Of a stretch of 64,000 bases of DNA, positions 8,581 to 46,395 are shown one piece after another (position 1 is the first letter of the stretch; every line of letters begins with the position of its first letter). The DNA is from Bacillota bacterium. Its GTDB lineage: Bacteria; Bacillota; Sulfobacillia; Sulfobacillales; JAIMBI01. The stretch covers positions 22,927 to 86,926 of the forward strand of contig JAJZWS010000005.1 of NCBI GenBank assembly GCA_021846565.1, written 5' to 3'. The notes beneath the pieces are model-generated. The model made no database searches and was not told where the DNA came from. It was given only the letters and a program-made list of their open reading frames with translations. The position numbers and the translations under genes are program-made.

Positions 8581-8723
8581 GCCAACGCAACCAATACGGC
8601 GATGGAGACCGCCGGGGCTACGCCCGAACTGCCAGAGCATCTGGCTAATGACTCCTACCGTGCACGTGACGTTGACGTGGCGGTAGGGGTATTTTTTGTG
8701 CCGAAGCGGGAGAGGAGTTGCAC

Positions 8724-9656
8724 ATGCCAATCGTGGCACAGGGGCTGCAAGTGTTGTTTGTTCTGGCATTCGCGCCACTTTTAAAGGGCATCATGGATCG
8801 GGTGAAGGCTCGCGGCATGCGGCGACAAGGCCCTCCGTGGGTTCAGCCCTATCGGAATCTGTGGAAGTGGGCTCACAAGTCCATCGTGCGCACCCCATAC
8901 ACCACGGGCCTCGCGGACTGGGTTCCCGTGTTATATTTCACGGCGCCCCTGATAGTGACTCTGTTAATCCCGGTGTTGACCACCATGCCGCTGCCGCTCG
9001 CGTTTATGGCGGACATTTTGGGCGGCGGACTCATTTTGGCCGGAGCCGGCTTTCTGCTGTTGTTCTACGCCCTGGACTCGGGCAGCGCCTACGCGGCCAT
9101 TGGGGTGAGCCGCATCCGGCTCATCGGCACCCTGGGGGAACCACTGACGGTGATGGCCGTGTTCACGGCCGCCGCCGTGGGACACTCGACGATTCCCTAC
9201 ACGGTCAATCAGGCGTTCTTCGCCCAAAGTTTCTTCGCCCCGGTGCACCTGTTGGTGCTCCTGGCCTGGTTGCTGCTGCTGCTGGCCGAGGCCGGCCGCC
9301 TACCGGTGGACAACCCCGATTCGTCCCAGGAGCTGTCGCTCATCGACCCCAACCGGGTGTTTGAAGCCAGCGGCCCGGATCTGGCGCTGCTGGAGTGGGG
9401 CGGGTGGATGAAGTACACCGTGCTGTCCATCATTCTGGTGAACGTGTTGGGCTGGCCCGTGGGATTGGCGGCGATGCTGACGCCCGGCGCGCTGGCGCTG
9501 GCGATTCTGACGACGGCCGCCAAGCTGGTGGTGGTGGGGCTCGTGGTGGTGGGCATTGAGCTGTCTTTCGCCAAGCTCCGGCTGATGCGCATTGCGGAGT
9601 ACCTGACGCTCTCGGTGGCCTTGGCCGCGCTGGCGGCCTTGGCCGCCGGGCTCTAG
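8724..9656 (+). CDS. HyfC/HycD/NuoH-like membrane subunit, complex 1
   Basis: Multi-helix subunit (about 310 aa, 8 predicted helices) that in complex I and group-4 hydrogenases connects the electron-transfer arm to the ion pumps. The loop EAGRLPVDNP is the family signature. In typical members the following segment reads HLELTMIHEAMVLEYSG; here it is SQELSLIDPNRVFEASG, so a conserved His and an acidic residue of the ion-entry path are replaced. I choose ATG 8724 (GAGAGGAG 6 bp upstream) over TTG 8718. First gene of a six-gene operon with order C-E-F-G-I-B, identical to the minus-strand operon at 39.7-47.3 kb. Confidence 0.88.
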   Translation: MPIVAQGLQVLFVLAFAPLLKGIMDRVKARGMRRQGPPWVQPYRNLWKWAHKSIVRTPYTTGLADWVPVLYFTAPLIVTLLIPVLTTMPLPLAFMADILGGGLILAGAGFLLLFYALDSGSAYAAIGVSRIRLIGTLGEPLTVMAVFTAAAVGHSTIPYTVNQAFFAQSFFAPVHLLVLLAWLLLLLAEAGRLPVDNPDSSQELSLIDPNRVFEASGPDLALLEWGGWMKYTVLSIILVNVLGWPVGLAAMLTPGALALAILTTAAKLVVVGLVVVGIELSFAKLRLMRIAEYLTLSVALAALAALAAGL

Positions 9657-9708
9657 CGGCGGATTGGCGCCGATCCGGTTGCAGACTTTGTGTTGAAGGA
9701 GGAGCGCC

Positions 9709-10329
9709 ATGCCGGTGTGGTTGGTGCATCCCACGCTGATGGCCGAAGCGGGGGCGGCGGTGGTGTGGCTCGCGGCGAATCTCATTGCGCTGGCCCGCCG
9801 GCCCGCCACGGCCATCAGTTGGTATGCGATCGCGGGACTGGTCGAGGGGGGGCTGGCCGTGTTATGGGGGCTGGCCCACCACCAGGCCGCCTGGTGGAGC
9901 ATGGGGATTTTGTGGATGGCCGCCAAGGGCGTCGTGGTGCCGCGGTGGCTGTTGGCGGCGCTGCCGCCGGACCGGTGGGAACTGGTCGCGTCCGGCACCC
10001 CGCGCCTGCTGCTGGGCAGCGCGGTGCTGGTGGTGGTGACCGTGGCCGCCGGAGGATCGGCGGGGGTGGCGGTGGCGGCGCTGTTGACCCCGTTTTGGCT
10101 TTTGACCCAGCGGCGCGAGCTGTGGGTGGCCGCCATCCTGCTGATGGAGGCGGAAGTGGCGCTCGGCTTTGTCGCGCTGGGCGCGCACGTCGCACCGGCG
10201 ACGGTCGATGTCCTGGACGTGGCCGAGGTCCTGTGGGCCGGGGCCCTGCTGGCGTGGCTGCTGCGGCGGGGCCGGCTGGATTGGGATGAGCCGATTCACA
10301 CGACGGCGCTTCGGCGTCTGAGGGGGTAG
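9709..10329 (+). CDS. HyfE-like membrane subunit, complex 1
   Basis: Small hydrophobic protein (206 aa, 6-7 predicted helices), placed as hydrogenase-4 component E by size and position between hyfC- and hyfF-like genes; HyfE corresponds to NuoK plus part of the NuoJ region in complex I. Primary sequence is strongly drifted, with few conserved acidic residues in the membrane (EAEVAL near residue 148). AAGGAGGAG precedes the ATG. Only 5 bp separate it from hyfF. The assignment depends partly on synteny with the second operon. Confidence 0.72.
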   Translation: MPVWLVHPTLMAEAGAAVVWLAANLIALARRPATAISWYAIAGLVEGGLAVLWGLAHHQAAWWSMGILWMAAKGVVVPRWLLAALPPDRWELVASGTPRLLLGSAVLVVVTVAAGGSAGVAVAALLTPFWLLTQRRELWVAAILLMEAEVALGFVALGAHVAPATVDVLDVAEVLWAGALLAWLLRRGRLDWDEPIHTTALRRLRG

Positions 10330-10334
10330 GCGAC

Positions 10335-11663
10335 GTGGCGGTATGGGTTCCCATCGCATGGGTGATCGGGATGGGAGCATTGGCGTCCGGGCGGGGCCGC
10401 TGGCCACTGGTGGCGGCCGCCGGCACGGCCTTGGCGGCGGCACTGGACGTGTCGCGCGCGCTGGCGCACCCGGCCTGGACGGCCGAATATGGGGCGTTGG
10501 TCCTGGTGCTGGCCACCTTTGCGCTCATCATGTCGCCCGCCTATTTCCTGGGGGCAGCGGTTCACCACCCGTGGCCCGCGGCCCGCGAGCGCTGGTACTA
10601 CGCTTGGCTCGGGGTGTTTGCGGCGGCGCTCCTGGCGCTGGCGGCGCCGTGGCCGCTGGTGGATCTGTGGGTGGCCGTGGAAGCCACGACGCTGTCATCG
10701 GTGCTGCTGGTGGCCCTGCCCCCCGGCGCCGGGCCGTTTGAGGCTTCGTGGAAGTACGTGACGCTGGCCATGCTGGGCGGACTGCTGGCGTTGGGCGGCA
10801 TCCTGCTGATGCAAAGTGGCGCGGCGGCCGACGTGGCCGTGGGGGCGCTGTTGATGCTGGTGGGCTTTGGGATCAAGGCGGGCTTGGTGCCGTTCCACAC
10901 CTGGCTGCCGGACGCGCATGCCGAGGCGCCCGCCCCGGTGTCGGGCCTGCTGTCAGGGGCCGAGCTGGGGGGGATTCTTATCGTGGCGTGGCGCGGACTC
11001 ACGCTGGCTCAGGGGCTCCTGCACCAGCACTGGCCACTTCTGGCGCTTTTGGCGCTGGGGCTCCTGTCCCTGCTGGTGGGGGTGGCTTTGATATCTCGCC
11101 AGCACAATCTGAAGCGTCTGTTGGCGTACTCGTCCGTCGAGCACATGGGGGTCATTGCGGTGGGGCTGGCTTTTGGGGGGCCGGCTCTCTTAGGGGCGTT
11201 TCTGCACGTGTTTACCCACGGGTTGGCCAAAAGCCAGGCGTTTTATCTCTCCGGGTCGGTGCAGGCGCACTACGGGACCGTGGACACGCGGCACATTCAC
11301 GGCCTGGGCCGCCGACTCCCGTGGACGGCCGGGGGTCTCATGGTGGCCATCGGAGCTCTGGCCGGCCTGCCGCCGCTGGGGCCGTTTTGGAGTGAGTGGC
11401 TGGTCATTCAGGGAGGGTTGGCGGACAAGGGGATGGCGGTGTGGGCGGCTCTGACGGCGCTGCTGCTGGCTGGCGGCTTCGTGGCGCTCATGTACCGGCT
11501 GCCGCGGCTCTGGCAGGGCTCTCGGCCTCCGGTGCCCCCCGAGGGGGCGGGGCCGCCGGAGTCCAAATTCCTTTCCCTGCCTGTACTGTTGATGTCCAGC
11601 CTCACGATGTCGGCCGGGGTGGTCGTGCCCTGGGTGTTCCTGGGGTTGGGACGGGGGGTGTAG
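10335..11663 (+). CDS. HyfF-like antiporter-type subunit, complex 1
   Basis: The 442 aa, about 13-14 helices, belong to the NuoL/M/N (Mrp antiporter-like) ion-pump family. Key features are kept: TM5 glutamate in WVAVEATTL, TM7 lysine in GFGIKAGLVPFHTWLPDAH, and LKRLLAYSSVEHMG. GTG start 5 bp after the HyfE stop codon. HTWLPDAHAEAP is followed by the usual SGLLSGAELGG. With an intact pumping set, this subunit could still move protons or sodium, unlike its operon mate HyfB. The gene ends 1 bp before the hyfG-like start. Confidence 0.88.
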   Translation: MAVWVPIAWVIGMGALASGRGRWPLVAAAGTALAAALDVSRALAHPAWTAEYGALVLVLATFALIMSPAYFLGAAVHHPWPAARERWYYAWLGVFAAALLALAAPWPLVDLWVAVEATTLSSVLLVALPPGAGPFEASWKYVTLAMLGGLLALGGILLMQSGAAADVAVGALLMLVGFGIKAGLVPFHTWLPDAHAEAPAPVSGLLSGAELGGILIVAWRGLTLAQGLLHQHWPLLALLALGLLSLLVGVALISRQHNLKRLLAYSSVEHMGVIAVGLAFGGPALLGAFLHVFTHGLAKSQAFYLSGSVQAHYGTVDTRHIHGLGRRLPWTAGGLMVAIGALAGLPPLGPFWSEWLVIQGGLADKGMAVWAALTALLLAGGFVALMYRLPRLWQGSRPPVPPEGAGPPESKFLSLPVLLMSSLTMSAGVVVPWVFLGLGRGV

Positions 11664-11664
11664 C

Positions 11665-13047
11665 ATGGCCGACCGCATGATCGTGGGAATTCCGGAGTCG
11701 CACGCAACCGATCCGCTGTCCGATGCGCTGGGACAGATGGCGCGCGACGGCGCCGCCCTGCTGCACGCGTTCCTGAGCGCGCGCGGGCTCACGTTGGTCA
11801 TCGCACCGGCAGCCCGGGGCGCGCCGGAGGAGATGGTCCTGGGGCCCGGTCCGTTCTCGCGGCCCACTCGCGCGGGCCATCAGCTGTTTTGGGGGATCGA
11901 GCACACGCTGCCCCCGATCGTGTGGCATCATGCCAGCCGGCGGCGCCCCGTACGGGGGCGGGGACTGCACCTCATGCCGCTCGGCCCGGTGCGCGGTGAC
12001 GTGTCCGAGTCGCTCGCGTACCAGCTGGTGGTGCTGGGCGACGAGATTCACCAGGTGCGGCTGCGTGCCGGGTACAAGCGGCGGCACGTGGCCGAGGCCA
12101 TGACGGGGGCGGATGTGTCGGCCGCCCTCCAGGTGGCCGAGCGGGTGACGGGGACCTCGCGGGTCGCGCACGCCCTGGCGTTTTCCCTGGCGGTGGAACA
12201 GGCGCTGGGCATCGGGGTGTCTGCCGCCGACCAAGAGGCCCGGGTGGTGCTGGCCGAGTTGGAGCGCATCACGAGCCACGTAGGGGATCTGGCGCTGTTG
12301 GCGGCGTCGACGGGCACCGTGGCGGCCGCTGCCGACTGGTTTCGCCTCAAAGAGACCCTGCTCAGGTTTCAGGCGGCGCTCACCGGGCACCGGTATCTCA
12401 TGGGGGTGGTGGGGCCGGGTGGGCACCGCCGGCCGCTGTCCCGCGAGCTGTCGGCGCTGCCCGCGCTGCTGGCCGCGGTCCGGGCGCAGGTGGACGCCGT
12501 CGCCAGTGCGCTGGACGTCACCAACAGCTATCTGGATCGGCTGCACGGTGCGGGCCGCCTGCCCGAATCCCCGGACGGCGGGGTGTACTGGACGGGGTTT
12601 GTGGGCAAAAGTGCCGGACTCATGCGGGACACGCGCTGGGATGCCCCGTATGCCGCGTATGGGGCCCTCACGGCCGGTCTGGCGCCCGTGTCCGTCAATC
12701 GGCCCGATGCTTACGGCCGCGCCTGGGTGCGTCTGGGCGAGGTGCGCCAGAGCTTGCAGATGCTGTCGCGGGTGATGGATTTTAGGTCTCCGGTCGAGAC
12801 CGCGGCGCCCCCCGAGAGGCAGGGTGGCGACCGGGGGGTGGGCTACGGGATGGTGGAGGCGCCCCGCGGCCGCCTGTGCTACCGCCTAGCGGTGCACGCG
12901 GGGCGCGTTCGCGCGGCGTCGCTCACCACGCCGTCCCAACTCAACTGGCCCGCGGTGCCGCTGGCGTTGGAGCAGCGAAACATCCTGCAGGATTTTCCCA
13001 TCATTGACGCGAGCTTCTCCCTGGCTGTGTCCGCGTTGGACTTGTAG
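11665..13047 (+). CDS. NiFe-hydrogenase-large-subunit-like protein without Ni ligands, complex 1
   Basis: Homologue of HyfG/HycE/NuoD (460 aa). The usual first nickel motif ERVCGICSVAH reads ERVTGTSRVAH (residues 160-169), and the C-terminal DPCxxC motif is absent (the protein ends IDASFSLAVSALDL). All four cysteine ligands of the NiFe site are therefore missing, so hydrogenase activity is not expected. The first 130 residues occupy the NuoC-domain position but lack its recognisable motifs, such as the ERExxDxFG box present in the paralogue at 42.6 kb. The protein probably keeps a structural or quinone-like role next to the NuoB-type Fe-S subunit (inference). ATG follows the HyfF stop codon by 1 bp. 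Confidence 0.85.
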   Translation: MADRMIVGIPESHATDPLSDALGQMARDGAALLHAFLSARGLTLVIAPAARGAPEEMVLGPGPFSRPTRAGHQLFWGIEHTLPPIVWHHASRRRPVRGRGLHLMPLGPVRGDVSESLAYQLVVLGDEIHQVRLRAGYKRRHVAEAMTGADVSAALQVAERVTGTSRVAHALAFSLAVEQALGIGVSAADQEARVVLAELERITSHVGDLALLAASTGTVAAAADWFRLKETLLRFQAALTGHRYLMGVVGPGGHRRPLSRELSALPALLAAVRAQVDAVASALDVTNSYLDRLHGAGRLPESPDGGVYWTGFVGKSAGLMRDTRWDAPYAAYGALTAGLAPVSVNRPDAYGRAWVRLGEVRQSLQMLSRVMDFRSPVETAAPPERQGGDRGVGYGMVEAPRGRLCYRLAVHAGRVRAASLTTPSQLNWPAVPLALEQRNILQDFPIIDASFSLAVSALDL

Positions 13048-13102
13048 CGCCCACACAGACGCAACGCCCGGGAGAAGTTGCCACACGAGAAGGGAGCGCC
13101 GC

Positions 13103-13639
13103 ATGTTTTATCGACGATGGCTTATGCACTATCTGAAGCGGCCGGTGGTGACCAGCTTTCCGGGTCAAGTCGACCCGGCCGCTCCCGCGCGCGCCCCGCT
13201 GGAGCCAGCCGCCCATCCGCTGTTTCGCCAATCGCTCACCCTGCGTCAGGTGGATGGGGGGTCGTGCAACGGCTGCGAGGCGGAGATCCAGCTGCTGGCG
13301 AGCCCGGTCTACGATCTGTCGCGCTTTGGCTTCGCGCTCTCTCCGTCGCCCCGCCATGCGGACCTGCTGCTCGTGACCGGCGTCATCACCGAGGCGATGG
13401 TGCCCGTCATCCGCACCGCCTACGACGCCATGCCTGAACCCCGCCTGGTGGTGGCGGTGGGCGCGTGTGCCACCGAGGACGGCGGCGGGTTTCACGGCAT
13501 GCCGGGGGTGGTGGGGCGGCTGGACGGGGTGGTCCCCGTGGCCGTGCGCATTCCCGGATGCCCACCCAGCCCCAACGACCTCCTGGCGGGACTGCTGGCA
13601 GCGGTCGGGCGCCCCGCACGCACCGCGGAGGCCCGCTGA
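13103..13639 (+). CDS. HyfI/NuoB-like Fe-S subunit, complex 1
   Basis: The 178 aa are homologous to hydrogenase small subunits and NuoB. The four ligands of the N2-type [4Fe-4S] cluster are present: two in GGSCNGCEAEI, one in VGACA and one in PGCPPSP. No ferredoxin-type domain is attached, unlike the paralogue at 41.8 kb, and no separate ferredoxin subunit gene exists in the operon, so electron input must come from elsewhere. ATG 13103 has GAAGGGAG upstream; the ORF-track start at 13004 lies inside hyfG. The stop codon overlaps the start of hyfB (TGATG). Confidence 0.88.
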   Translation: MFYRRWLMHYLKRPVVTSFPGQVDPAAPARAPLEPAAHPLFRQSLTLRQVDGGSCNGCEAEIQLLASPVYDLSRFGFALSPSPRHADLLLVTGVITEAMVPVIRTAYDAMPEPRLVVAVGACATEDGGGFHGMPGVVGRLDGVVPVAVRIPGCPPSPNDLLAGLLAAVGRPARTAEAR

Positions 13640-15624
13640 TGCTCGCGGCCGCGCTCTTGGTGCTGCTGACCGCGATTGCCGCCGGGCTCGGCCTGCTGCA
13701 CGCGGGTCGGCCTCGGTCGCGCGCCGGGGCGCGCCTGGCGGTTGGCACCTGGTTCGCGCTGGCCATGGCGGGCGCGGTAGGGCTAATTTGGCGCAGTGGC
13801 ACGCTGCGTCTGGTCACGCCGGTGGGGTCGGTGGGATGGCACGTGGATCCGTGGGTGGCTGGCTGGCTCATGGTCGTGGGGCTGATGGGCGGTTTCGCCG
13901 TGAGTGCGCGGGCCGCGGCCGGGGCGGTGCCGGGAGAAATGATCGCGGTCAGCTGGCTGGCGGTGGGCGTGGCCGGCATCTTAACTGCTGCCGATGCCCT
14001 GACCCTGGTGCTGGCATGGGGTCTTTTGACCGCGTCCGCCTATGGGGCGGTGGTGGCCGGGGCGCACCGGGCACGGGTGCTGGCCGCGGGCTGGGTGCTC
14101 CTGGTGATGAATGAGCTGGGCACCGCCGCGCTCATCGTCGGCGCCATCCTGCTGACAACCCAAGTTGCGGTCGGCCCGGTGGCGGACGTCGCCGCGCTGT
14201 TGGGTCTGTTGGGCCTAGGTGCGAAGACGGGGCTGTTCCCCTTTCAGGTATGGCTGCCGGTGGCGGAACCCGAGGCGCCTGGGGTGGTGGCCGGTGTGTT
14301 GTCCGGGGTGACCACGGCGGTGGTGATGGTGGCACTGGGTCAGTGGTACGGCTGGACGCATCCGGACCTGACCGTGGGCTGGATCACGGTGGGGCTCGGG
14401 GTGGTGGGCGGCGCCCTGGGGGCGGTTCACGCGGCCCTGGACCATGACTTGAAGCGGGTGTTGGCGTACTCCACCGTCGAGTGGATGGGACTCGCCACCG
14501 CGCTGCTGGGCCTCTCCGTCGTCTTTCTCCGCACCGGTGCCCCCGCCCCCGCGGGTGTGGCGCTGGCCGCGTTTTATGCCGTGGCCCTCATGCATCTAGG
14601 CGCCAAGACGGCGGCCTTTGGCATTGCCGGGTGGGTAGAGCAGGCGGGCGCGGGGCGGCGGCTGGATGCCTTGGGAGGGCTGTATCGCCGAGCCGGGTGG
14701 CTCGCGCGGTGGGCGCTTTTGGCCGTGATTGCCCTGATGGCGCTGCCGCCCACCGGAGGGTATTTGGCGGAGTGGCTATCCCTGGAATCCGTCTTCATGG
14801 AAAGCGCCGGGCCGCTTAAGCCGCCGCTTCTGGTCGTGGGCATCCTGCTGGCGCTTTTGGCCGCCACGGGCGCCACCGCCATGCTGCGCTGGTATGGCGC
14901 CGTATTTCTGGGGCCTCCGCGCGGCCGCAAGCTGCCGCGCCGTCCCGACGCGGGGTCCGTCCGCCTGGTGGGGGCCGGTGCGGTGCTGGCCGCCGTGGCG
15001 GGTGTGGGGGTCGGGTGGTGGCTGCCATTTGCGGCGCGCTGGGCGCCCCCGCTCGTGGGTCAGCCCGTGCTGCGGCACCTGGTGGCCCGGACGTTTGGTG
15101 CGCATCCGGCCCCGGCGCTGCTGGTATCCCTGGGCGGGCGCGTGTTTGCCGGGCTGCCTGGCGCGCCGGGCGCCATCGTGTTTCCGGGTCCGGGATTCAC
15201 GGCCATCGCCCCTTGGTATCTGCTGTGGTTCGGCGGTGCGATGGTGCTCGGCGTGGCGTGGGCGCGCCGCGCGTGGATGCGGCGGCACCAACTGACCGTA
15301 CGCCGGGAGGCGCCTTGGTCCGGCGGGTCCCACTATCGGCGGGAACACGCGTGGACCGCCACCGCGCTGACGCACCCCTTGCGGCTGGCCTTTGCCCCCG
15401 TGATTCGTCTCACGCGCCGCCGGCAGGAGGGGGCGGTGGTGCGTGTGGACACGGACATCGCCGATCGCCTGCTGGAGCAGGGGATGCGGCCCGTGCAGCG
15501 ATGGGTCGGGCGCATAGCCGATGCGCTCGCCCAAACCGAGTCGGGGCTGGTGAGCCACTATGTCTTGTATGTGCTGGCGGCTCTTGCGGTGGGGCTTTTG
15601 GCGCTCGGCCTCCACGCCGGCTGA
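13639..15624 (+). CDS. HyfB-like antiporter-type subunit, TM5 glutamate lost, complex 1
   Basis: The 661 aa form a NuoL/HyfB-type subunit with about 14 pump helices, a C-terminal amphipathic stretch and a final helix (about 635-655). Lysines in GAKTGLFPFQVWLP and LKRVLAYSTVEWMG are kept. The TM5 signature WEL(M) reads WGLL (W127-G128), so the glutamate needed for proton transfer in this family is glycine; the paralogue has WELM. The start ATG overlaps the HyfI stop codon, giving tight coupling. The ORF-track start at 13465 lies inside hyfI. Either this channel no longer pumps or it uses another residue. Confidence 0.86.
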   Translation: MLAAALLVLLTAIAAGLGLLHAGRPRSRAGARLAVGTWFALAMAGAVGLIWRSGTLRLVTPVGSVGWHVDPWVAGWLMVVGLMGGFAVSARAAAGAVPGEMIAVSWLAVGVAGILTAADALTLVLAWGLLTASAYGAVVAGAHRARVLAAGWVLLVMNELGTAALIVGAILLTTQVAVGPVADVAALLGLLGLGAKTGLFPFQVWLPVAEPEAPGVVAGVLSGVTTAVVMVALGQWYGWTHPDLTVGWITVGLGVVGGALGAVHAALDHDLKRVLAYSTVEWMGLATALLGLSVVFLRTGAPAPAGVALAAFYAVALMHLGAKTAAFGIAGWVEQAGAGRRLDALGGLYRRAGWLARWALLAVIALMALPPTGGYLAEWLSLESVFMESAGPLKPPLLVVGILLALLAATGATAMLRWYGAVFLGPPRGRKLPRRPDAGSVRLVGAGAVLAAVAGVGVGWWLPFAARWAPPLVGQPVLRHLVARTFGAHPAPALLVSLGGRVFAGLPGAPGAIVFPGPGFTAIAPWYLLWFGGAMVLGVAWARRAWMRRHQLTVRREAPWSGGSHYRREHAWTATALTHPLRLAFAPVIRLTRRRQEGAVVRVDTDIADRLLEQGMRPVQRWVGRIADALAQTESGLVSHYVLYVLAALAVGLLALGLHAG

Positions 15625-24726: not shown

Positions 24727-25683
24727 GTGCTGGTGGAGTGCGTGGCCAATTTCAGCGAGGGGCGTCGGCCCGACGTGGTAGCCGCCATTGTCGAGGCGGC
24801 ACGCGGCCCGGCCGTTCAGGTGTTGGACGCGTCCGCCGACCAAGATCACCACCGCTTTGTGTTGACCCTGGCCGGGGAGGGCGAGGCGGTGGCCGCGAGC
24901 GCCTTTCGCGCCGTGGCGGCGGCGGTCGCTCGCATCAACCTGACCCAGCACCGGGGGACGCACCCGCGCATCGGGGCGGCGGATGTAGTGCCGTTTGTCC
25001 CACTGGGCAACACGCCCATGTCCTATTGTGTAGGGCTGGCGGAGTCCGTCGGGGAGCGCATCGGGTCCGAGTTGGGGGTGCCGGTGTTTCTCTACGGCGC
25101 CGCTGCCCGCCGACCCATGCGTCGGGATCTGGCGCGCGTGCGCCGGGGAGAGTTTGAAGGACTGGAGGCGCGCATGCGCGAGCCCTCGGGGGCGCCGGAC
25201 TTTGGCCCGAGGGCTCCGCACCCCACGGCCGGAGCGGTCGCGGTCGGCGCCCGCCCTGCCCTGGTGGCCTTCAATGCCTGGCTCAGCACCGGCGACTGGG
25301 CGGTGGCCGATGCCGTGGCGCGGGCGGTACGCGGGTCGAGCGGCGGCTTGGTGGGCGTGAAGGCGCTGGCCATGGACACCGCGACCCATGGTCAGATGCA
25401 GGTGTCGATGAACCTGGTGGACTTCCGTGCGACATCCCTGCCGGCAGCGTTGGAGCTGGTGCGGCGTGAGGCGGCGCGCTTTGGCGTGACGGTGACGGAG
25501 ACCGAAATCGTGGGCATGGTGCCGCTGGCTGCCCTGTTGGCGGCGGCACAGTACTATCTCCAGGCGCATCACTTCTCGGCGGGCCAGGTGCTGGAGCTGG
25601 GACTTCTCGACTGGGCCCGCTTACAGCCCGCCACGGGAAATCCGGACACGACCGAGACCGCGACCAGAGGACCACGGGGATGA
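24727..25683 (+). CDS. glutamate formimidoyltransferase
   Basis: Transfers the formimino group from N-formimino-L-glutamate to tetrahydrofolate in the last stage of histidine degradation. The 318 aa begin with the typical VECVANFSEGRR, followed by DHHRFVLTLAG, THPRIGAADVVPFVP and the KALAMDT region. The cyclodeaminase half found in bifunctional FTCD is absent. GTG 24727 has GGAGGG upstream; the ORF-track start at 24580 is unlikely. It overlaps hutI by 4 bp (ATGA). Confidence 0.9.
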   Translation: MLVECVANFSEGRRPDVVAAIVEAARGPAVQVLDASADQDHHRFVLTLAGEGEAVAASAFRAVAAAVARINLTQHRGTHPRIGAADVVPFVPLGNTPMSYCVGLAESVGERIGSELGVPVFLYGAAARRPMRRDLARVRRGEFEGLEARMREPSGAPDFGPRAPHPTAGAVAVGARPALVAFNAWLSTGDWAVADAVARAVRGSSGGLVGVKALAMDTATHGQMQVSMNLVDFRATSLPAALELVRREAARFGVTVTETEIVGMVPLAALLAAAQYYLQAHHFSAGQVLELGLLDWARLQPATGNPDTTETATRGPRG

Positions 25684-26918
25684 GCGTACCGACGGGAGGC
25701 TCGGCGGACATGGTGATCCGGCACATTGGCCAACTGCTCACGATGGCGGGCGGGGTGGGAGCCGAGTTTACTGCCTCGGCCGACGCGGCGGTGTGGATCG
25801 CGGACGGTCGCGTGCGCTACGCAGGACCCGAGAGCGGCTTGCCGCTCGAGGCGGACGGTTTCGTGGTGGACGCCGGGGGACGTCTGGCCACGCCCGGGCT
25901 GGTGGATGCGCACACCCATCTCCTGTATGCCGGCCAGCGGGCCCAAGAAGTCGCGCTCCGTGCTAAGGGGGCGAGCTATCTGGAGATGCTGGAGGCCGGC
26001 GGCGGCATTTTGGCCACGGTGTCCGCCACGACCGCGGCGTCTGACGAGGATGTGCTGGCCGCCACGCGGCGGCGGCTCGAGGAGGCACTGCGGGCAGGCA
26101 CCACGACCCTGGAGCTGAAAACCGGCTACGGGCTGACGCCGACGGCCGAACTGCGCCTCCTCGGTCTGGCGGAGGTGCTCCGGGCCGAGGGGCCCCAGCG
26201 CCTGGTGCTCACCTTTCTGGGCGCGCACGCGTTGCCGCCATCTCACCGAGGGGACGCGGAGCGCTTTTTGGCGGAGATGGCTGCCGTGCACCCGGCGCTG
26301 GTGGGCCGGGCCGACTTCGTCGACATCTTTTTGGAGCCGGGGGTGTTTCAGGCCGCAGCGGCCGACGACTATCTCGCCCGGGCCCAGCAGCAGGGACTGG
26401 CCCTCAAGGTGCACGTGGATGAGCTCCAGGACGGCGGCGGGGCGGCGGTGGCCGCGCGCCGGGGCGCCGTGTCGGCCGACCACTGTGCCTACACGTCGCC
26501 CGCAGGCATCGCCGCGCTGAAGGCGGCGGGCACCGTGGCGGTGCTGTTGCCGGGCACCGCGGGCTATCTGCACCCCGAGCACATGGCCCCCGCGCGACAA
26601 TTTCTGGACCAGGGGGTGCCGGTCGCGATTGCCTCCGACGGGAACCCCGGGTCGTCGCCTACCAGCTGTTTGGGTACGCTGCTGCCGTGGGCGGCCGCGT
26701 GGCTGCACCTCACGCCCGACGAGGTGTGGACGGCGGTCACGCGGGGCGGGGCGGCGGCGCTGGGCCGGGGCGACGTGGGACAGCTTGCCCCGGGCGCCTG
26801 GGGCGACCTGGTCGTGTGGGACACCGACGACTATCGCGTGCCGTGCCATCGGTACGGCACCAACCTCGTGCAGGCGGTGTACGTGGGCGGACAGCGGGTC
26901 GCACCCAGGTGCCGGTAG
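25680..26918 (+). CDS. hutI: imidazolonepropionase
   Basis: Metal-dependent amidohydrolase that opens imidazolone-5-propionate to formimino-glutamate, which its operon partner then uses. The 412 aa show the zinc ligands in DAHTHLLYAG, LKVHVDEL, SADHCAY and the catalytic Asp in ASDGNPGSSPTS, plus the substrate-contact sequence LELKTGYGL. The start overlaps the formiminotransferase stop codon. No hutH or hutU lies nearby; they must be elsewhere or the pathway is fed differently. Confidence 0.95.
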   Translation: MSVPTGGSADMVIRHIGQLLTMAGGVGAEFTASADAAVWIADGRVRYAGPESGLPLEADGFVVDAGGRLATPGLVDAHTHLLYAGQRAQEVALRAKGASYLEMLEAGGGILATVSATTAASDEDVLAATRRRLEEALRAGTTTLELKTGYGLTPTAELRLLGLAEVLRAEGPQRLVLTFLGAHALPPSHRGDAERFLAEMAAVHPALVGRADFVDIFLEPGVFQAAAADDYLARAQQQGLALKVHVDELQDGGGAAVAARRGAVSADHCAYTSPAGIAALKAAGTVAVLLPGTAGYLHPEHMAPARQFLDQGVPVAIASDGNPGSSPTSCLGTLLPWAAAWLHLTPDEVWTAVTRGGAAALGRGDVGQLAPGAWGDLVVWDTDDYRVPCHRYGTNLVQAVYVGGQRVAPRCR

Positions 26919-26926: not shown

Positions 26927-27430
26927 CTACCGCGCGATCGACGGAGTGCCCGACGCCACCACCTTGAGCGTGTCCCACATCCCGAGTTGTTCGTGCCCGG
27001 GTACGAGGCACGCAATCCGATACGTCCCGGCTTTCGTGGGCGCAAACGTGAACGTGGCGGTCGATCCCGGAGCCACCCCCGAGGTTGCGTTGGGGCTCGG
27101 CACCGGGAAAGGCCCATGTGGTGCTGTTGGCCGCATTGGTTACAATGGCCGCAGAGTGGGGCAGGAGCCCCTGGTTGCTCAGGGTGACGGTCACCGTCTA
27201 CCCGGTGGGTGCGGTGATGACCGTGGCGCCCTTGCCCTCGCCGTTGTAGTTGTGTACCCAGCCACCAGCGTGATGGACACGGTTTTGGCGGCCGCCTGAC
27301 AGCTTAAAAACTTGCTGGGCGTGGCCAGGCCCGTCGCGGGTGCCGTGGTTTTGGGCAGGAGGCCCAGCGCGGCCGTCTCCTGTGCCTTGCCATTGCGCCC
27401 ATTGGCACTGAACAGGAATGCCGCCACGGT
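26927..27430 (-). pseudogene. sulfocyanin-like blue-copper protein, decayed
   Basis: Three reading frames together encode a cupredoxin of the sulfocyanin type. Frame 1 gives VSITLVAGY, then a shift (two extra bases) to NYNGEGKGATVITAPTG, an in-frame TAG where sulfocyanins usually have Trp, then TVTVTLSNQGLLPHSAAIV, and a second shift to TFTFAPTKAGTYRIACLVPGHEQLGM. The copper ligands (His of LPHS; Cys, His and Met of CLVPGHEQLGM) are still readable, but no intact product is possible. The usual N-terminal membrane anchor is also missing. It lies directly downstream of the broken cytochrome gene on the same strand, a likely former electron-transfer pair. Confidence 0.8.
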
Positions 27431-27444
27431 TGCTGGCCTGCTTC

Positions 27445-27752
27445 TTAAGTCAGCGAGCCGGGGTTCCGCTTGGGCATGCATTTGTAGATGAATTGAGCTA
27501 GCTGGTTCTGGGTGGGGTTGAGCCCCTTTAAGCGAATGGACGACGTGGCGCTGATAAGGGGCAGGTATACGCCCGGCACGCCCAAGCCCGTAGCTCCGTG
27601 GCACACGGTGCAGGTCGTTTTGTGCAGGGAGGCCCCTGCACGATGTTCCCGGTCGGAAAACTGGGGGTCGAAAACGTAGGGCCCTGCCCACAGCCGGTCC
27701 CCACCAGCGCAACCAGCAGCATTCCGCTGGCAATCGTTCCCCGCCTGCGCAT
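27445..27752 (-). pseudogene. lipoprotein c-type cytochrome, frameshifted
   Basis: The ATG at 27752 is preceded by GGAGGAA and begins a lipoprotein signal (MLLVALVGTGCGQG) running to GNIVQG. The heme-binding part (LHKTTCTVCHGATGLG, and the later YKCMPKRNPGSLT carrying a Met) is in another frame, so a frameshift near 27630 separates signal peptide and heme motif. Restored, the product would be about 100 residues, a small monoheme cytochrome c anchored outside the membrane. Start, ribosome binding site and stop are all intact, so the disabling event looks recent. Confidence 0.8.
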
Positions 27753-28071
27753 GCCTATTCCTCCTGCTGAGCGCTGGATGGATCAGGTCACGACGCAATC
27801 CCCACGGAATCCTCACCGCCATAGCGGTGCATTACGGGCGATATCTTCCTGACTTATAGTCACGCGAGAAGTGCGCGGCAACCGCTGGCCGCGATATTGT
27901 GCACGCGTGCGCGAGCGCGACTCCGCCCCACGTGAACGATCGGCGCGTTCGGTTCATCCTCGTCCCGGGCATCGTCGTCCCGAAAGTCCGTGGCGTTTGA
28001 TAGCATTGAGGTCCAGTGCCGGCCCCGCGGGACACCTCGGGCCGTACAGGGAACGCGAGGAGGGAGCATCC
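27753..28071. other. intergenic region between divergent genes
   Basis: About 320 bp separating the broken cytochrome gene and the methyltransferase gene. It must hold two divergent promoters, but no convincing -35/-10 pair was found on either strand. No gene or repeat seen. Confidence 0.4.
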
Positions 28072-28686
28072 ATGAAAAACCCTTGGGACAACCGCGAGCG
28101 CCTGGAATGGCTGCTGGCACCCCGGCGCCAAACCTGGTTTCCGCGTGCGCCGATTGTGTTGGCGCTGGAGTTGGGCGAAGGGGCGGCCGTGGCGGATGTG
28201 GGGGCCGGCAGCGGATATCTGGTGGAGGAGCTGGCCGTGGCGGTGGGCTTAGCCGGACGGGTGTGGGCCGTGGATCCCAGCCCCCAGGCCCGAGCCCTCC
28301 TGACCGAGCGGTTTCAGGACGAGGCCCATCGCCAGGTGGTGGTGCGCGACGGCACAGCGGCTGCCACGGGGCTCGTGGACCGGTCGGCCGACGGCATGGT
28401 CTGGCTGGCCATTTATCATGAGCTGCTGCACGCGACACCCGACGGCGAGGAACTGCATCGGAGCTTTGCGGAGGCGCGGCGCGTCTTGAAACCGGGCGGT
28501 CGGCTGGTCATTGGCGACTGGCGGCCGGTGCCCACCGAGGTGGGCCCGCCGACCCGGGAGCGCGTGGATCCGGAGAGGGCGGGGCAGGCGCTGACGGCGG
28601 CCGGGTTCACCGTGGCGTCCTCCACCAACCTGAGTGAGGCGGTGTGGCTGCTAACGGTCACGACCCCGGACGACGAGCCACAGTGA
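28072..28686 (+). CDS. class I SAM-dependent methyltransferase
   Basis: The 204 aa hold the SAM-binding motif ADVGAGSGYLVEEL, the acidic VDPS at the end of strand 2, and RRVLKPGGRLVIGDW in motif post-II/III. A substrate cannot be told. ATG 28072 has CGAGGAGGGA upstream; the ORF-track start at 27871 is unsupported. The stop codon overlaps the GTG start of acpS, making it the first gene of the acpS-nnrD-alr run. Confidence 0.85.
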   Translation: MKNPWDNRERLEWLLAPRRQTWFPRAPIVLALELGEGAAVADVGAGSGYLVEELAVAVGLAGRVWAVDPSPQARALLTERFQDEAHRQVVVRDGTAAATGLVDRSADGMVWLAIYHELLHATPDGEELHRSFAEARRVLKPGGRLVIGDWRPVPTEVGPPTRERVDPERAGQALTAAGFTVASSTNLSEAVWLLTVTTPDDEPQ

Positions 28687-39689: not shown

Positions 39690-41798
39690 TCAGGTGATGC
39701 GGATCAGCAGCATAGCGACCAAGAGCGCCACGAAGGCGTAGCCCACGTACGCGTTGACACTGCCGCGATGCATCCGCGCGAACAGGTGGGCCAGCGCTCG
39801 CGCCCCACGGATGGAGGGATCCACGATGAGGCGGTCCACCACATAGCGCGAGCGATCTTCGCGCTGGACGCTGACCCGAAAGTGCTCGGCCACCACCTCC
39901 TCGCGATCCACCGTCTGTCCGGGGCTCAGCACGGCGCGAAACACCACCCAAATGGGGCGGGCCACGCCGGTGGCCGTGTAGGTGAGGCCCGCATCCACCG
40001 TGCGGGCACCACCGAGCCAGGGCCGTCCCCGGCGCACCCGCCCGTGACCCAAAAGCCTGGCCAGGGCAAACGCCAAGGCGAGCGCGATGCCGATGGCAAG
40101 GGCCAGATAGGTGGGCGACATCGCAAACACGACGCCCGCGTGCAGGCGGGTGCTGGGATGCATGAACACCACACCGGGCGCCGGCAGCACGTGCTGCCCG
40201 AGGGCCGCCCCCAGGGGATAGAACGCGGACGCGAGCGCGGGCGGGAGTGTGGCCGGCTGAAAGAACGTGGGGATGAAGGCCGCAAGGTCATGGCTCTGGG
40301 CCAGACTGGCCGCTACCCGAGCCAATCCGGTCGCCACGTACGTGGGGGCAATGCCTAAGCCCAGTGCCAGCGCCGCCAACAATCCCATGGCGATCCGCTG
40401 AGTGGCCGTCACGTCCCGGGCCTGCGCGGCGTGGTCGGATCGGTGCCGTCCCAGAAACGTCATGCCGTAGAATCGAATGAAAGCCGTGGCGGCCAGGCCC
40501 GCCGTCAAAGCCACGGTGACGCCGGCCAGCGCGAACGCTGTCTCCAGGGCCGGGTTGGCCATGGCGACGCTGCGCAGGAGGCTCTGCAGCAGCAGCCATT
40601 CACTGGCAAACCCGTTAAACGGGGGAATGGCCGCGATGGCCATCGTGCCCGCCAACAGAAACACCCCGGTCCACTTGAGCCGTCGCGCCAGTCCTCCGAG
40701 ATGGTCCATGTTAAGTTCGTCGGTCGCCTGGTCGATGGCGCCGGCACCCAAAAAGAGCAGGGTTTTGTACACCGAGTGATTCAGCAGCTGATACAGGGCC
40801 GCGATCCACGCCAGGAGGCCCAGGACCGGCAGGCCCACCCCATCGAACGTCATGGCGGCCCCAATCCCGATGGTGACCAGGCCCATGTTCTCGATCGAGC
40901 TATGAGCCAACAGGCGCTTGATGTGCGTGTCGGTGGCCGCATACAGAATCCCCAAAAACGCGGTCACAACGCCAATGCCCAGCACGATCACGCCGGCGGC
41001 CGGGCTTGGCGGCGGCAATAGCAGCACGTTGGTCAGAATGATGCCGTACAAACCCAGATTGAGGATAGCCCCCGACAAGACGGCCGACGCATGGGCCGGA
41101 GCGGCGGGATGGGCGCGGGGCAGCCAGCTCATCGCGGGAAACAGGCCCGCCTTGACGCCAAAGCCCAGGAACGAGAGGCCGAAGACGGCCCAGCGCACGC
41201 CGACCGTCAGCCGGTCGGGCCCCGCGGCCGCAATCGCGGAAAACCCGATGTTGTGGGCGGCCAGCACCAAAGGCAGCCATGCGGCCAGCACCATGAGGAA
41301 GCCCAGTTCACTGGCGCCCAGCATGGCGTAGGCGGCCCGGGGATTTTCGGGCGTCTCGTGGTCAAACACCACCGTGATGTACGACAGCACCGACATCAGC
41401 TCCCAGGCAATGAGAAAGGTGACGACATCGCCGGCCAACAGAATCAGCGCAATGGAACCAAGCAGGAGAGCCAGCGTGATGCCGAGCGGCCGCTGGTCGT
41501 ATCGGTCCTGGTATCGGGCCAGGTAGCCCGGGGAAAAGAGATAGACGGCCAGGAACACGACCGCCGTCACCATCAGCAGGAATCCGCCCAGGTCCGTGAA
41601 GGTAAGCCGCAGCATGCCCCAACCGGCGAGCGGCCACAGCAGCCACTCTTGTCCGGGATGCGTGAGAACGGTCCCGGCCAGCGCGAGCAGCGCCAGCGCC
41701 TGGGCCACCCCCGCCGGTGCGGTCCACCGACCGCGCCGGGAGAGCCCGGCCGCCGCCGCCACCAGGGTGAGCCCGAAAAACAACGGCAGCGCGATCAT
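39690..41798 (-). CDS. HyfB-like antiporter-type subunit, complex 2
   Basis: The 702 aa are a NuoL/HyfB-type ion pump with about 14 helices plus a C-terminal extension and last helix. The key residues are intact: TM5 glutamate in AWELMSVLSY (E133), TM7 lysine in GFGVKAGLFPAMSWLP, and IKRLLAHSSIENMG. The paralogue in operon 1 has lost the TM5 glutamate. ATG 41798 overlaps the HyfI stop codon (ATGA). Last gene of the minus-strand operon. Confidence 0.9.
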   Translation of the reverse strand: MIALPLFFGLTLVAAAAGLSRRGRWTAPAGVAQALALLALAGTVLTHPGQEWLLWPLAGWGMLRLTFTDLGGFLLMVTAVVFLAVYLFSPGYLARYQDRYDQRPLGITLALLLGSIALILLAGDVVTFLIAWELMSVLSYITVVFDHETPENPRAAYAMLGASELGFLMVLAAWLPLVLAAHNIGFSAIAAAGPDRLTVGVRWAVFGLSFLGFGVKAGLFPAMSWLPRAHPAAPAHASAVLSGAILNLGLYGIILTNVLLLPPPSPAAGVIVLGIGVVTAFLGILYAATDTHIKRLLAHSSIENMGLVTIGIGAAMTFDGVGLPVLGLLAWIAALYQLLNHSVYKTLLFLGAGAIDQATDELNMDHLGGLARRLKWTGVFLLAGTMAIAAIPPFNGFASEWLLLQSLLRSVAMANPALETAFALAGVTVALTAGLAATAFIRFYGMTFLGRHRSDHAAQARDVTATQRIAMGLLAALALGLGIAPTYVATGLARVAASLAQSHDLAAFIPTFFQPATLPPALASAFYPLGAALGQHVLPAPGVVFMHPSTRLHAGVVFAMSPTYLALAIGIALALAFALARLLGHGRVRRGRPWLGGARTVDAGLTYTATGVARPIWVVFRAVLSPGQTVDREEVVAEHFRVSVQREDRSRYVVDRLIVDPSIRGARALAHLFARMHRGSVNAYVGYAFVALLVAMLLIRIT

Positions 41799-42508
41799 GA
41801 CTCAGCCACCTCCCGGGTTTCCCGGCTCAAGCCCGTGACCAGCTCCAGCGCATGCAGGATCGCCAGCGGCGGCGGGGGACACCCCGGGACGGTCACGTCC
41901 ACCGGCACCACGCGACTGGCGCCGCCCATCACCGCAAAGCTGTCGGCAAACAAGCCGCCGTTCAGCGCGCACACGCCGACGGCCACCACCCGCTTGGGGT
42001 CGGGCATCGCCGCGTACGTCTCCTCCAGCGCTACGCGCATGCCGACGGTTACGGGCCCCACAACCAAGAGGACGTCGGCATCACGAGGAGTTGGGGAGAC
42101 GTAGATGCCATAACGGTGCAGGCTGTAGACGGGGCCCAGCAGCTGCCGCAGTTCGCTCAGGCAGCCGCCGCAGTCGCCGGCGTCCACGATGCGCACATGG
42201 ATGGACCGCTGAAAGCGGTGAGGCAGTGGCGGCGCAGCGGCCTGAGCCCACCGGTAGTCGTTCTGCCAGTGAACCGGGGCTTTGGGAGGTTGACAGCGCA
42301 TGCAGTGGATGCAGTGGTCAAAGTCCACGGCGACGCCCGCATCGCGTCCTGCCAGTGCGCCGACCGGACAGATGTTGGCGTCGAAGCGGTCTCGCGCCGT
42401 CACGGCCGTCGTGGTGGGTCGACCCGGCGTGACCCCCGAGGGCAGTCGGACAGCCCCCGGTCGGAGTGTGCGGACACCAGTCTTGAGTCCTTCCCAGAAC
42501 CAGGGCAT
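41795..42508 (-). CDS. HyfI/NuoB-like Fe-S subunit fused to half a ferredoxin, complex 2
   Basis: The 237 aa have two parts. Residues about 40-80 keep ICPVGAL (C47) and CIHCMRCQPP (C66, C69, C72): the fourth cysteine of one ferredoxin motif plus three of the next, which together coordinate exactly one of the two clusters of a 2[4Fe-4S] ferredoxin. Residues about 105-225 are the NuoB/hydrogenase-small-subunit fold with C113 and C116 (GDCGGC), C180 and C210 for an N2-type cluster. The complex 1 homologue has only the second part. Good ribosome binding site GGAGGGAGG before ATG 42508. Confidence 0.88.
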   Translation of the reverse strand: MPWFWEGLKTGVRTLRPGAVRLPSGVTPGRPTTTAVTARDRFDANICPVGALAGRDAGVAVDFDHCIHCMRCQPPKAPVHWQNDYRWAQAAAPPLPHRFQRSIHVRIVDAGDCGGCLSELRQLLGPVYSLHRYGIYVSPTPRDADVLLVVGPVTVGMRVALEETYAAMPDPKRVVAVGVCALNGGLFADSFAVMGGASRVVPVDVTVPGCPPPPLAILHALELVTGLSRETREVAES

Positions 42509-42560
42509 CGCGTCTCCTCCCTCCGTTTGCTCTTTCCTCGGCGGCGCGTCCGCGCGGAGG

Positions 42561-44108
42561 CTACCGATCCGCGTCGGCCACCGACAAACCCAAGGTGCTG
42601 ACGATAATGGGAAAGTCCTGAAAGGCGAAGTCGCGCACGGCGTCAGCCAGGCCGTGCCAGTTCAGAAAGGCCGGTGTCATGATGTGGCATCGGTCAACGG
42701 TTCCGGCGCTCCCGATCCGCACCCAGTACGCGAGCGCGCCCGATGGCGCCTCCACGGCGGCCAATCCCACTCCCGGGACCACCGGGACGGGAGTCTGGAC
42801 CGGGCCGGCGGGCAGGGAGGCGGCGCACCGCTGGATCAGGTCCACCGACGCCGCCACTTCCCGGCGAAACACACGGAACCGCGCGTACCCGTCGCCCTCC
42901 GACTCGATGACCGGCGTGACGGGATGCTGGTCGTACGCGGCATACGGGTGCCAGCAGCGCACGTCGGCCGGGGCCCCAGACGCTCGGCCCACCGGTCCCA
43001 CCAAACCCAGGGTGGCGGCCCGTGGGGGAGGCAGGATGCCCACCGCTTCCAGACGGTCCAAAAAGCTGTTGTCAAACGTTAGCCGATGGCAGACCGCCTG
43101 GACCGCCGCCACCGCCTCGACGCCGGCCTCGGCCAGGGCGTGGAGCGCGTCGTCTCCGGGATCCCGGGAGAGGCCACCCAGGGCCACCAGACCAAACAGG
43201 TAGCGATGCCCCAGGTACCGCGCCGACTGCTGCAGCAGGCGCTCCTCCACGGCGGCCAGGAGATTGGCGGGGACGGAGAGGCCGGTGGATTCCACGATGC
43301 CGGCGAGCGTGCCCACGTGGCTTCGCAGGCGCTCCCATTCGGCCAGCACGGTTCGGAGGGCACGCGCCCGGGGTGGGACGACGGCCGCGGCCACGGCCTC
43401 GACGGCTTGTGCGAAGGCGAGGCCATGGGCAAAGGCCTGCATGCCGTTTACGCGCTCGGCAACCAGCACCGCCCGGTTGGGCGTTTGCCGTTCCATGAGC
43501 TTCTCGAGTCCCCGGTACTTGTAAAACAGACGCACGTGCGCGTGCATGATTTCCTCGCCCACGGTCTCCAACAGGAACCGCACGGACTCCTGGGCCCCCG
43601 AAAACACGGGGCCGACCGGCATCACGAAGCGACCGGGCGCCTGCACGATGCGGGGCGGTTCGTACGGGTCCCGACCGCCGCCGTGGGCGGGAGGCTCCGG
43701 CCGCATGCGCATCGGTGCCAGACGTTCCGCCCAATCTTCATCGTGCAGGATGAAGTCGCCCAGTTGAGGGTGTCCCGCAAAATTGACGCCAAACAGGTCC
43801 TCAGCCTCCCGCTCGGCCCAGTCGGCGGCAAATACGGTGGGCGTAATGCTGGGCACGACCGCCCCGTCCATCGCGACGTCCACCAAAAGCCACCGCGCTT
43901 CAGGACCCATCCACACATACTGGAGGTGCGGCGGGGGCGACCCCGTCGGGTGTTCCACCACCAGCCCGATGAAGAGGGGATGGTTCTCTGCCATGAGCCG
44001 CCGCACCGTGTCCGGCAACGTGGCTTGGGAGGTGCTGACCATTTGCAGGGGCTCGCGGCCGGCGGGCGCGTCCGGCGCGCCCACTCTCGGCGCATCCGTG
44101 CGGTTCAT
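42561..44108 (-). CDS. NuoC-NuoD-type fusion subunit without Ni ligands, complex 2
   Basis: The 515 aa contain a complete NuoC-like domain (about 30-150; DWAEREAEDLFGVNFAGHP) followed by a NiFe-large-subunit/NuoD-like domain. The first nickel motif ERVCGIC reads ERVNGMQ (218-224), and the C-terminus DFPIIVSTLGLSVADADR has no DPCxxC. So the NiFe site cannot form. Other conserved family segments remain (YKYRGLEKLME, FDNSFLDRLEAVG). GAGAGGAG precedes ATG 44108. Likely an electron acceptor or quinone-type site rather than H2 chemistry (inference). Confidence 0.88.
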   Translation of the reverse strand: MNRTDAPRVGAPDAPAGREPLQMVSTSQATLPDTVRRLMAENHPLFIGLVVEHPTGSPPPHLQYVWMGPEARWLLVDVAMDGAVVPSITPTVFAADWAEREAEDLFGVNFAGHPQLGDFILHDEDWAERLAPMRMRPEPPAHGGGRDPYEPPRIVQAPGRFVMPVGPVFSGAQESVRFLLETVGEEIMHAHVRLFYKYRGLEKLMERQTPNRAVLVAERVNGMQAFAHGLAFAQAVEAVAAAVVPPRARALRTVLAEWERLRSHVGTLAGIVESTGLSVPANLLAAVEERLLQQSARYLGHRYLFGLVALGGLSRDPGDDALHALAEAGVEAVAAVQAVCHRLTFDNSFLDRLEAVGILPPPRAATLGLVGPVGRASGAPADVRCWHPYAAYDQHPVTPVIESEGDGYARFRVFRREVAASVDLIQRCAASLPAGPVQTPVPVVPGVGLAAVEAPSGALAYWVRIGSAGTVDRCHIMTPAFLNWHGLADAVRDFAFQDFPIIVSTLGLSVADADR

Positions 44109-44188
44109 CCTCGTTCTCCTCTCTCGGGCGAGCGTCTAATCACCGGGTCGCCCTGCTTTGGATGAGCATCGGCACCCCCGGCCCCCCA

Positions 44189-45634
44189 TCAGCGCAAGGT
44201 GGCGGCGGCCATGCCCAACAAGTGATAAAGTGGCAGGGGAAGGTAGATCCCCAGCACGACCACGGGAACAATCCCCACGAGCATCGCGGCCGCTACCGAC
44301 CGGGGGAGCCGTACTGGCCCGTGCGTGGGGTGGCCAAATATCATGCCCCCCGTTCGGCGCAGAATCCCCAGAAAGGCAATGGCCAGGAACACCAGCAGCA
44401 GCGCGAGCACCAAGTAATCCTGCGCGGTGGCGGCCGCACGGAAAATCGTCAGCTCGCTGAGAAACACCGCAAACGGGGGCGCCCCCGCAATGGCCAAGGC
44501 CCCCACGAACAGGGCCGCCGCCGCCACCGGAGCGCTTCGCAAGAGACCGCGGACGTCCCCGATGGTGCGGGTGCCGGTCGCCAACAGCACACTGCCGCTG
44601 CCATAAAAGGCGAGCGACTTGGTGAGGCCGTGGGTCGTCAGTTGGTAGACGCAGGCCAGCGCCCCCAATGGCCCCAAGCCCAGACACAACAGCAGCATGC
44701 CCATGTGTTCCACCGTTGAAAAGGCAAAGAGGCGCTTGTAGTCATGCACCTGGAGCAGCAGGAAGGCCGCCGTGCCCACCGACACCAGCCCCACGACCAG
44801 AGCCCACGACTGCGGCGACAATCCCGGCACGGCCGTGAACACTGGCCAAAGCCGCAGGATAACGTACAGCACCGTGCTCACCTCGACGCCCGACAGCAAG
44901 GCGCAGACCGGGGTGGGTGCTTGGGAGTGGGCGTCCGGCAGCCAGGTGTGCATCGGCACTAGGCCCACTTTGGCACCAAAGCCAATCAGGATAAGCACAA
45001 ACGCCAGCGCCACGACCCCCGCCGGCATGTGCGGTGCCGTCCGAATCAGCGCGCTCCACGTCTGAACCGTCACGTGGTTGCGCGTCAAGCCCCACAGCAG
45101 TAGGAAAATGCCGAACGCGGCCACCGTGGCCCCCATAATCGTGATGACCGCGTACTTCCATGCGGCCTCCAACGCTTCGCGGGTGTTGGCGAAGCTCACG
45201 AGAAAGATGGACAGGACGGTCGTGAGCTCGATGGCCACCCAGGTAAGTACGGGCTGCAGCAGCAGCGGCACCACAAACAGCGACGCTTGAAAGAGATTGA
45301 GGTTAAGAAAGTACCGCCGCTGACGCGCCGGGTCCCCCGGGGCGAGGTGAGGAATGTACCCCCAGGAGTAGGCGGCCGCGGTGAGGCCCACAAAGCCCTG
45401 CAACACCAGGATCAGGGCCGCAAGCGCGTTGACGCCGATCCATCCGGGCAGCAGCACCCCGCCGACGTGGCGCGTCACGTCGCTCGCGACCGCCAGCGAC
45501 GCGGCAAACGCCAGCAGGGCGGTTGCCAACGTGCTGAGCTTCGCCACCCGGACGTTCTTCACCACCAGGCAGAGCGCGGCGGACACCAGCGGGGCGGCCG
45601 GAATCACCCCCAGCAGCATGGCCGAAAGCCTCAT
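44189..45634 (-). CDS. HyfF-like antiporter-type subunit, complex 2
   Basis: The 481 aa belong to the NuoM/N-type ion pumps. TM5 glutamate (WVAIELTTVL), TM7 lysine (GFGAKVGLVPMHTWLPDAH) and the YKRLFAFSTVEHMG segment are all kept. ATG 45634 overlaps the HyfE stop codon (ATGA) and is preceded by GAGGGGGTG. It is followed by an 80-bp gap before the NuoCD-type gene. Confidence 0.9.
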   Translation of the reverse strand: MRLSAMLLGVIPAAPLVSAALCLVVKNVRVAKLSTLATALLAFAASLAVASDVTRHVGGVLLPGWIGVNALAALILVLQGFVGLTAAAYSWGYIPHLAPGDPARQRRYFLNLNLFQASLFVVPLLLQPVLTWVAIELTTVLSIFLVSFANTREALEAAWKYAVITIMGATVAAFGIFLLLWGLTRNHVTVQTWSALIRTAPHMPAGVVALAFVLILIGFGAKVGLVPMHTWLPDAHSQAPTPVCALLSGVEVSTVLYVILRLWPVFTAVPGLSPQSWALVVGLVSVGTAAFLLLQVHDYKRLFAFSTVEHMGMLLLCLGLGPLGALACVYQLTTHGLTKSLAFYGSGSVLLATGTRTIGDVRGLLRSAPVAAAALFVGALAIAGAPPFAVFLSELTIFRAAATAQDYLVLALLLVFLAIAFLGILRRTGGMIFGHPTHGPVRLPRSVAAAMLVGIVPVVVLGIYLPLPLYHLLGMAAATLR

Positions 45635-46296: not shown

Positions 46297-46395
46297 GTTG
46301 TTGCCTCCCACGTCGTTAAAACCTTCGCCAGCGCCACATATCGTCCGAAGACCACGGGACGGCAAAACCGGGGAGCGGACCTCAAAGCAGAGAGC

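Follow-up and report, generated by a model that had tools for sequence, protein, structure and literature searches.

The window analyzed here, a 64,000-nucleotide stretch of contig JAJZWS010000005.1 from a Bacillota bacterium, carries at positions 26,927 to 27,752 the motifs of a heme protein and of a copper protein in reading frames that do not join. The question raised by this locus is what was once encoded there, whether the gene is genuinely broken, and why it was allowed to decay. The window's genome (G000, a draft assembly in 134 contigs) was compared with three congeners, G001, G002 and G003 (public records list the last two as Bacillota metagenome bins), and with a search set of 61 related genomes; genome-wide statements on G000 derive from family searches. 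The feature is very probably the pseudogene of an exported carrier of a cytochrome bc-to-caa3 oxidase branch, a gene that became useless when the branch and its heme attachment machinery were lost, at least twice in the genus.

A cytochrome c-sulfocyanin pseudogene

The remnant, bounded by an ATG start at 27752 and a TAG stop at 26927, is 826 bp long, as compared to 846 bp for an intact relative. Its parts are as follows.

26927..27752, minus strand: whole remnant of a fused lipoprotein cytochrome c-sulfocyanin gene, aligned from start to stop with the intact, syntenic open reading frames (ORFs) of G002 and G003
27445..27752, minus strand: cytochrome c part, placed by the relatives' alignment, with sub-threshold Pfam matches (PF13442/PF00034) for the fragment by itself
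26927..27290, minus strand: sulfocyanin (SoxE) part, placed by PF06525 matches for both of its pieces and by the relatives' alignment

The cytochrome c part has a lipoprotein signal (GTGCGQ) at its N-terminus, a heme site (CTVCH) at 27612-27598, and an axial Met region (MPK) followed by NPGSLT, the tail of a class I cytochrome c. It is interrupted by a frameshift near 27637 and a frameshift or stop near 27448. The sulfocyanin part retains a PHS copper-ligand region (PHSAA) at 27161-27147 and a copper site (CLVPGHEQLGM) at 27010-26978; a 19-bp deletion near 27253 and a 2-bp deletion near 27096 disrupt it, and an in-frame TAG at 27200-27198 occupies a position where the relatives have Trp. The pieces are spread over three frames of the minus strand, and the two cupredoxin pieces match Pfam SoxE (PF06525) with E-values of 1e-6 and 3.6e-8 (28.8 and 33.5 bits).

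In G002 and G003, a single uninterrupted ORF spans both domains at the same locus (85% and 80% identical to the window, respectively, over the cytochrome half), and the fusion is also present in G004, G011, G027 and G029, the last being Sulfobacillus benefaciens AMDSBA4. Both domains of the intact proteins score above the Pfam gathering thresholds (80.6 bits for the G002 protein against PF06525, where the cut-off is 21). Their heme domain combines CXXCH, a distal Met and the Pfam score of a class I cytochrome c. Remnant and intact relatives alike have the His, Cys, His and Met ligands of a type I copper site, laid out as PHS and C-x3-GH-x3-GM. The intact fusion misses the TIGR03094 sulfocyanin equivalog cut-off (76.4 vs. 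168.4 bits). An AlphaFold model of the intact fusion, built from six sequences, gave mostly 72-94 pLDDT for the copper domain and below 50 for the cytochrome half, and was not used.

Because one ORF covers both domains in G002 and G003 at this spot, 26927-27752 represents a single remnant; on its motifs and alignments, the feature is one pseudogene of a lipoprotein in which a monoheme cytochrome c is fused to a sulfocyanin (SoxE). A sequence-only reading of the window had recognized CTVCH, the lipoprotein signal and CLVPGHEQLGM, all of which were recovered on the minus strand, together with several frameshifts and a TAG at a likely Trp codon, which the alignment bore out; its two genes lying head to tail turned out to be one. 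Intact copies, which it had suggested seeking in close relatives, are those of G002 and G003.

Relative to G002, the window copy has three deletions (1, 19 and 2 bp), two 1-bp insertions and an in-frame TAG. These five indels and one nonsense change inactivate a gene that G002 and G003 keep intact at this locus. Substitutions at codon positions 1/2/3, assigned with G003 as the outgroup, numbered 14/16/22 in the window lineage, as compared to 6/2/19 for that of G002 and 14/7/69 for the G003 side, and the pattern of the window lineage differs from both (Fisher p=0.03 vs. G002 and 6e-5 vs. the G003 side). This near-neutral pattern is that of relaxed constraint. The decay is recent, because the start and stop codons can still be read, as can CXXCH and the copper ligands.

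Loss of the cytochrome c branch

That the lineage was losing an electron-transport branch, as the sequence-only reading had proposed, is supported by the state of the carrier's likely partners, which reveals a much fuller loss than could be read from the window. In G002 and G003, a caa3-type oxidase operon encodes a subunit II with a CuA site (CAEFCGTGHADM) and CSTCH that passes the CoxB cut-off; the G002 operon has a second CXXCH in subunit IV and CtaG alongside. In G000, this operon was cleanly excised, with the flanks abutting at C16 and ~5.5 kb gone. The qcrB gene of G000 lacks residues 1-176, and qcrC is fragmented in several frames. The ccmE-ccmF-x-ccmA-ccmB-ccmC operon for heme attachment is intact in G002 and G003; in G000, a deletion of ~4.25 kb takes ccmE, ccmF and x, frameshifts disrupt ccmA and ccmB, and ccmC has no N-terminus. 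Thus the bc complex, the caa3 oxidase, heme attachment and the carrier are all lost in G000, and G001 is without the same four modules.

In G001, qcrB and qcrC are broken differently from those of G000, and a whole-genome search found no caa3 sequence. Protein searches did not find CcmF in G000 or G001, nor CcmC in G001; a search of ten genomes found System II ResB in none of them, and neither G000 nor G001 has a further PF13442 cytochrome c. The G001 carrier orthologue is broken as well, in the same synteny, with lesions of its own (58-, 30- and 10-bp deletions, plus smaller ones). No carrier indel is common to G000 and G001. A concatenated protein tree gave ((G000,G002)96,G003)100, with G001 outside. 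The losses in G000 and G001 are independent and convergent, because the tree groups G000 with G002 and places G001 outside, and because the two share no carrier indel. A loss inherited from their common ancestor was rejected on the same grounds, intact G002 and G003 lying between them in the tree.

The same association extends through the order, here tallied by hand over genomes at least 80% complete, with the contig-truncated CcmF of G028 counted as present. All 27 genomes with CcmF match the cytochrome domain (27/27). Of the 11 genomes without it, two hold the pseudogene remnants, and the other nine (G014, G015, G018, G020, G022, G026, G030, G032 and G033) have no cytochrome-domain match. 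Both states occur inside each of two genera (g1 and g7), so the cytochrome c system seems to have been lost repeatedly within the order.

A side observation concerns x, the 280-amino acid exported protein encoded between ccmF and ccmA in the G002 ccm operon (L098:9294-10136), which has no Pfam or NCBIfam match. It is 87% identical in G003, was deleted together with ccmE and ccmF in G000, and is possibly an unrecognized component of the Ccm machinery.

Likely function of the carrier and likely cause of its decay

In the intact relatives, electrons would most likely pass from menaquinol to cytochrome bc, then to the fused heme/copper carrier and on to the CuA-containing caa3-type oxidase, outside the membrane, with the Ccm (System I) machinery predicted to attach the carrier's heme. 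With the loss of heme attachment or of the oxidase, the fused carrier would have been left without a function and would then have decayed under relaxed selection. Fe(II) might be an electron source for the carrier, instead of or besides bc.

Several points weigh against this account. The place of the carrier between bc and caa3 is inferred from co-occurrence and co-loss and not from a shared operon; for AMDSBA4, a role of the same parts in iron oxidation or in reverse electron flow has been proposed (PMC4378227). The assemblies compared are drafts, ~96% complete; the ccm and caa3 loci of G001 lie at contig ends, so that their absence there stands on whole-genome searches. The census of cytochromes c used PF13442 and one cytochrome domain only, and unrelated c-type proteins could escape it. 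In favor of the account is a control, in which 38 genes of full length in G002 as well as in G003 were followed within the fetched regions; 21/38 are intact in G000, a figure that gives no estimate of the genome-wide pseudogene rate, as those regions had been picked for their cytochrome genes. The truly broken or absent G000 genes in this control are the cytochrome-branch genes and one neighbor clipped by the ccm deletion; the remaining non-intact ones reflect region edges or start sites.

The alternative that survives best, and which we regard as possible though not probable, places the carrier in an Fe(II)-oxidizing chain (from Fe(II) through cytochrome c-sulfocyanin to caa3, with bc working in reverse) and makes the loss of iron oxidation the cause of the decay. 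AMDSBA4, which holds the fusion, also has a bc complex and a CuA oxidase whose subunits II and IV contain CXXCH, both of them discussed for iron oxidation; Justice et al. described its bc complex and CXXCH-bearing CuA oxidase as unique within Sulfobacillus (PMC4378227). Sulfocyanin is also reported to be highly expressed in S. thermosulfidooxidans on ferrous sulfate (PMC4062416). Identical parts, however, also form an ordinary menaquinol-to-oxygen branch.

A very improbable cause is the one suggested by the sequence-only reading, that hyf-like membrane complexes took over and made the branch dispensable. Two such hyf/complex I-like membrane clusters do lie in the window, at 8718-15624 (cluster 1) and 39690-47421 (cluster 2). 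Yet cluster 1 is present in G003, where the cytochrome branch is kept, as well as in G001, where it is lost; in both clusters, the large-subunit homologue has none of the CxxC NiFe ligands; and complexes of this kind neither reduce oxygen nor can stand in for an oxidase. By their sequences, the clusters resemble hydrogenase-related complexes without the metal site and are not evident hydrogenases, and the proposed takeover is unsupported.

Even less credit can be given to the possibility that the organism has an intact gene and the frameshifts are sequencing or assembly artefacts. The assembly is a draft, and one of the five indels falls in a short G run, but this is the sole homopolymer indel, a 19-bp deletion and a nonsense change are among the lesions, the adjoining genes are intact, and deletions or breaks also affect the partner systems at other loci of the genome, all of which make sequencing error unlikely; together with the relaxed substitution pattern and the control-gene comparison, they led us to reject it. 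Least credible of all is that a neighboring cytochrome c gene and sulfocyanin gene decayed separately, which the different frames of the motifs and the stops between them might suggest, but which is contradicted by the single ORF over both domains at this locus in G002, G003 and other genera of the order.

The locus, the remaining oxidase and the place of the fusion

The pseudogene of the probable bc-to-caa3 carrier lies between two intact genes that serve as synteny anchors.

25680..26918, plus strand: hutI-like imidazolonepropionase, intact convergent neighbor, 93% identical to G002
27871..28686, plus strand: class I SAM methyltransferase, intact divergent neighbor, with acpS, nnrD and alr next

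The carrier locus is fixed, with hutI/ftcD on one side and the SAM methyltransferase, then acpS, nnrD and alr, on the other, an arrangement shared by most of the genomes examined across three families of the order. In G005, G007, G016 and G028, the locus encodes a diheme cytochrome c, in which a second cytochrome domain replaces the copper domain. Across L057, L059, L063 and L064, the C-terminal domain of the carrier is a cytochrome c in some genera and a sulfocyanin in others. By these comparisons, a second cytochrome c and a sulfocyanin have been exchanged at one fixed locus. About 50 bp 5' of the carrier (around CTCGCGTGACTATAAGTCAGGAAGAT; window 27752-27960) are alike in the pseudogene and G002, with divergence farther upstream; this conserved stretch is possibly the old promoter.

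Relatives of the fusion are found among several known systems. As in sulfocyanin (SoxE; PF06525, TIGR03094), the C-terminal domain of the intact relatives passes the Pfam gathering score and has the His, Cys, His and Met motifs, but the fusion falls far under the NCBIfam equivalog cut-off, is joined to a cytochrome c and is a lipoprotein, a pseudogene in the window. It shares CXXCH, the MPK-type axial Met region and an N-terminal lipoprotein anchor with small class I monoheme cytochromes c (PF13442/PF00034), to which it adds a C-terminal blue-copper domain. The diheme cytochromes c have the same synteny and a homologous N-terminal heme domain, and differ in the second domain. Cytochrome c-tethered three-domain copper nitrite reductases also join a blue-copper fold and a cytochrome c in one chain; however, those contain a catalytic two-domain CuNiR, whereas the carrier has a single cupredoxin and lacks a type 2 copper enzyme. 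The electron-transport set of AMDSBA4 has the bc and oxidase layout of G002 and G003, and the fusion at the same locus, but was lost in the window's genome; no mention of a fused cytochrome c-sulfocyanin was found in the AMDSBA4 paper (PMC4378227). Nor was a description of the fusion found in the open-access papers searched, subscription papers lying outside the search. A plasmid search matched only a distant Deinococcus sulfocyanin domain.

What remains in all four congeners is a stand-alone sulfocyanin lipoprotein and a quinol oxidase of the qoxABCD-like type, with no CuA ligands in its subunit II. The oxidase retained in G000 has its best match to QoxA/QoxB, and the CuA Cys ligands are replaced (HSGQFSGREFEKM). 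The stand-alone sulfocyanin, which needs no heme attachment, is intact in G000 (C5) and scores 78.5 bits against TIGR03094 (cut-off 168.4). Sulfocyanins as such are thus not being lost, an outcome of the search for further intact copies that the sequence-only reading had recommended.

In QoxB (G000:C26, L104:8423-10417), 21 amino-acid states are common to the cytochrome-less G000 and G001 as against the intact G002 and G003. Other groupings have only 2 and 0 common states, third positions are unbiased (34/33/23), and the grouping of G000 with G001 conflicts with the species tree. The pattern may be parallel adaptation or a gene-tree conflict, two causes that these alignments do not separate. 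A more far-reaching proposal, which we consider doubtful, is that the fusion is an undescribed heme-to-copper wire, specific to a bc/caa3 branch in acidophilic Gram-positives, and that after repeated loss of every c-type cytochrome the remaining quinol oxidase adapted in parallel, as the shared QoxB residues would then reflect, and the stand-alone sulfocyanin was kept as a heme-free external carrier, a bacterial counterpart of the Sulfolobus arrangement.

Loss of a respiratory branch is common. Here, an acid-loving bacterium has lost the cytochrome c branch of its respiration in full, and the fossils lie at mapped loci, as ruins of the carrier, the bc complex and the heme attachment genes and a clean excision of the oxidase. 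The intact systems of two congeners provide a standard for comparison, and the other, independent loss provides a replicate. The co-loss links an undescribed heme/copper fusion to a specific branch, making the predicted function testable, and this Sulfobacillus-related genus is a natural experiment in how quinol oxidases and blue copper proteins fare after the loss of c-type cytochromes.
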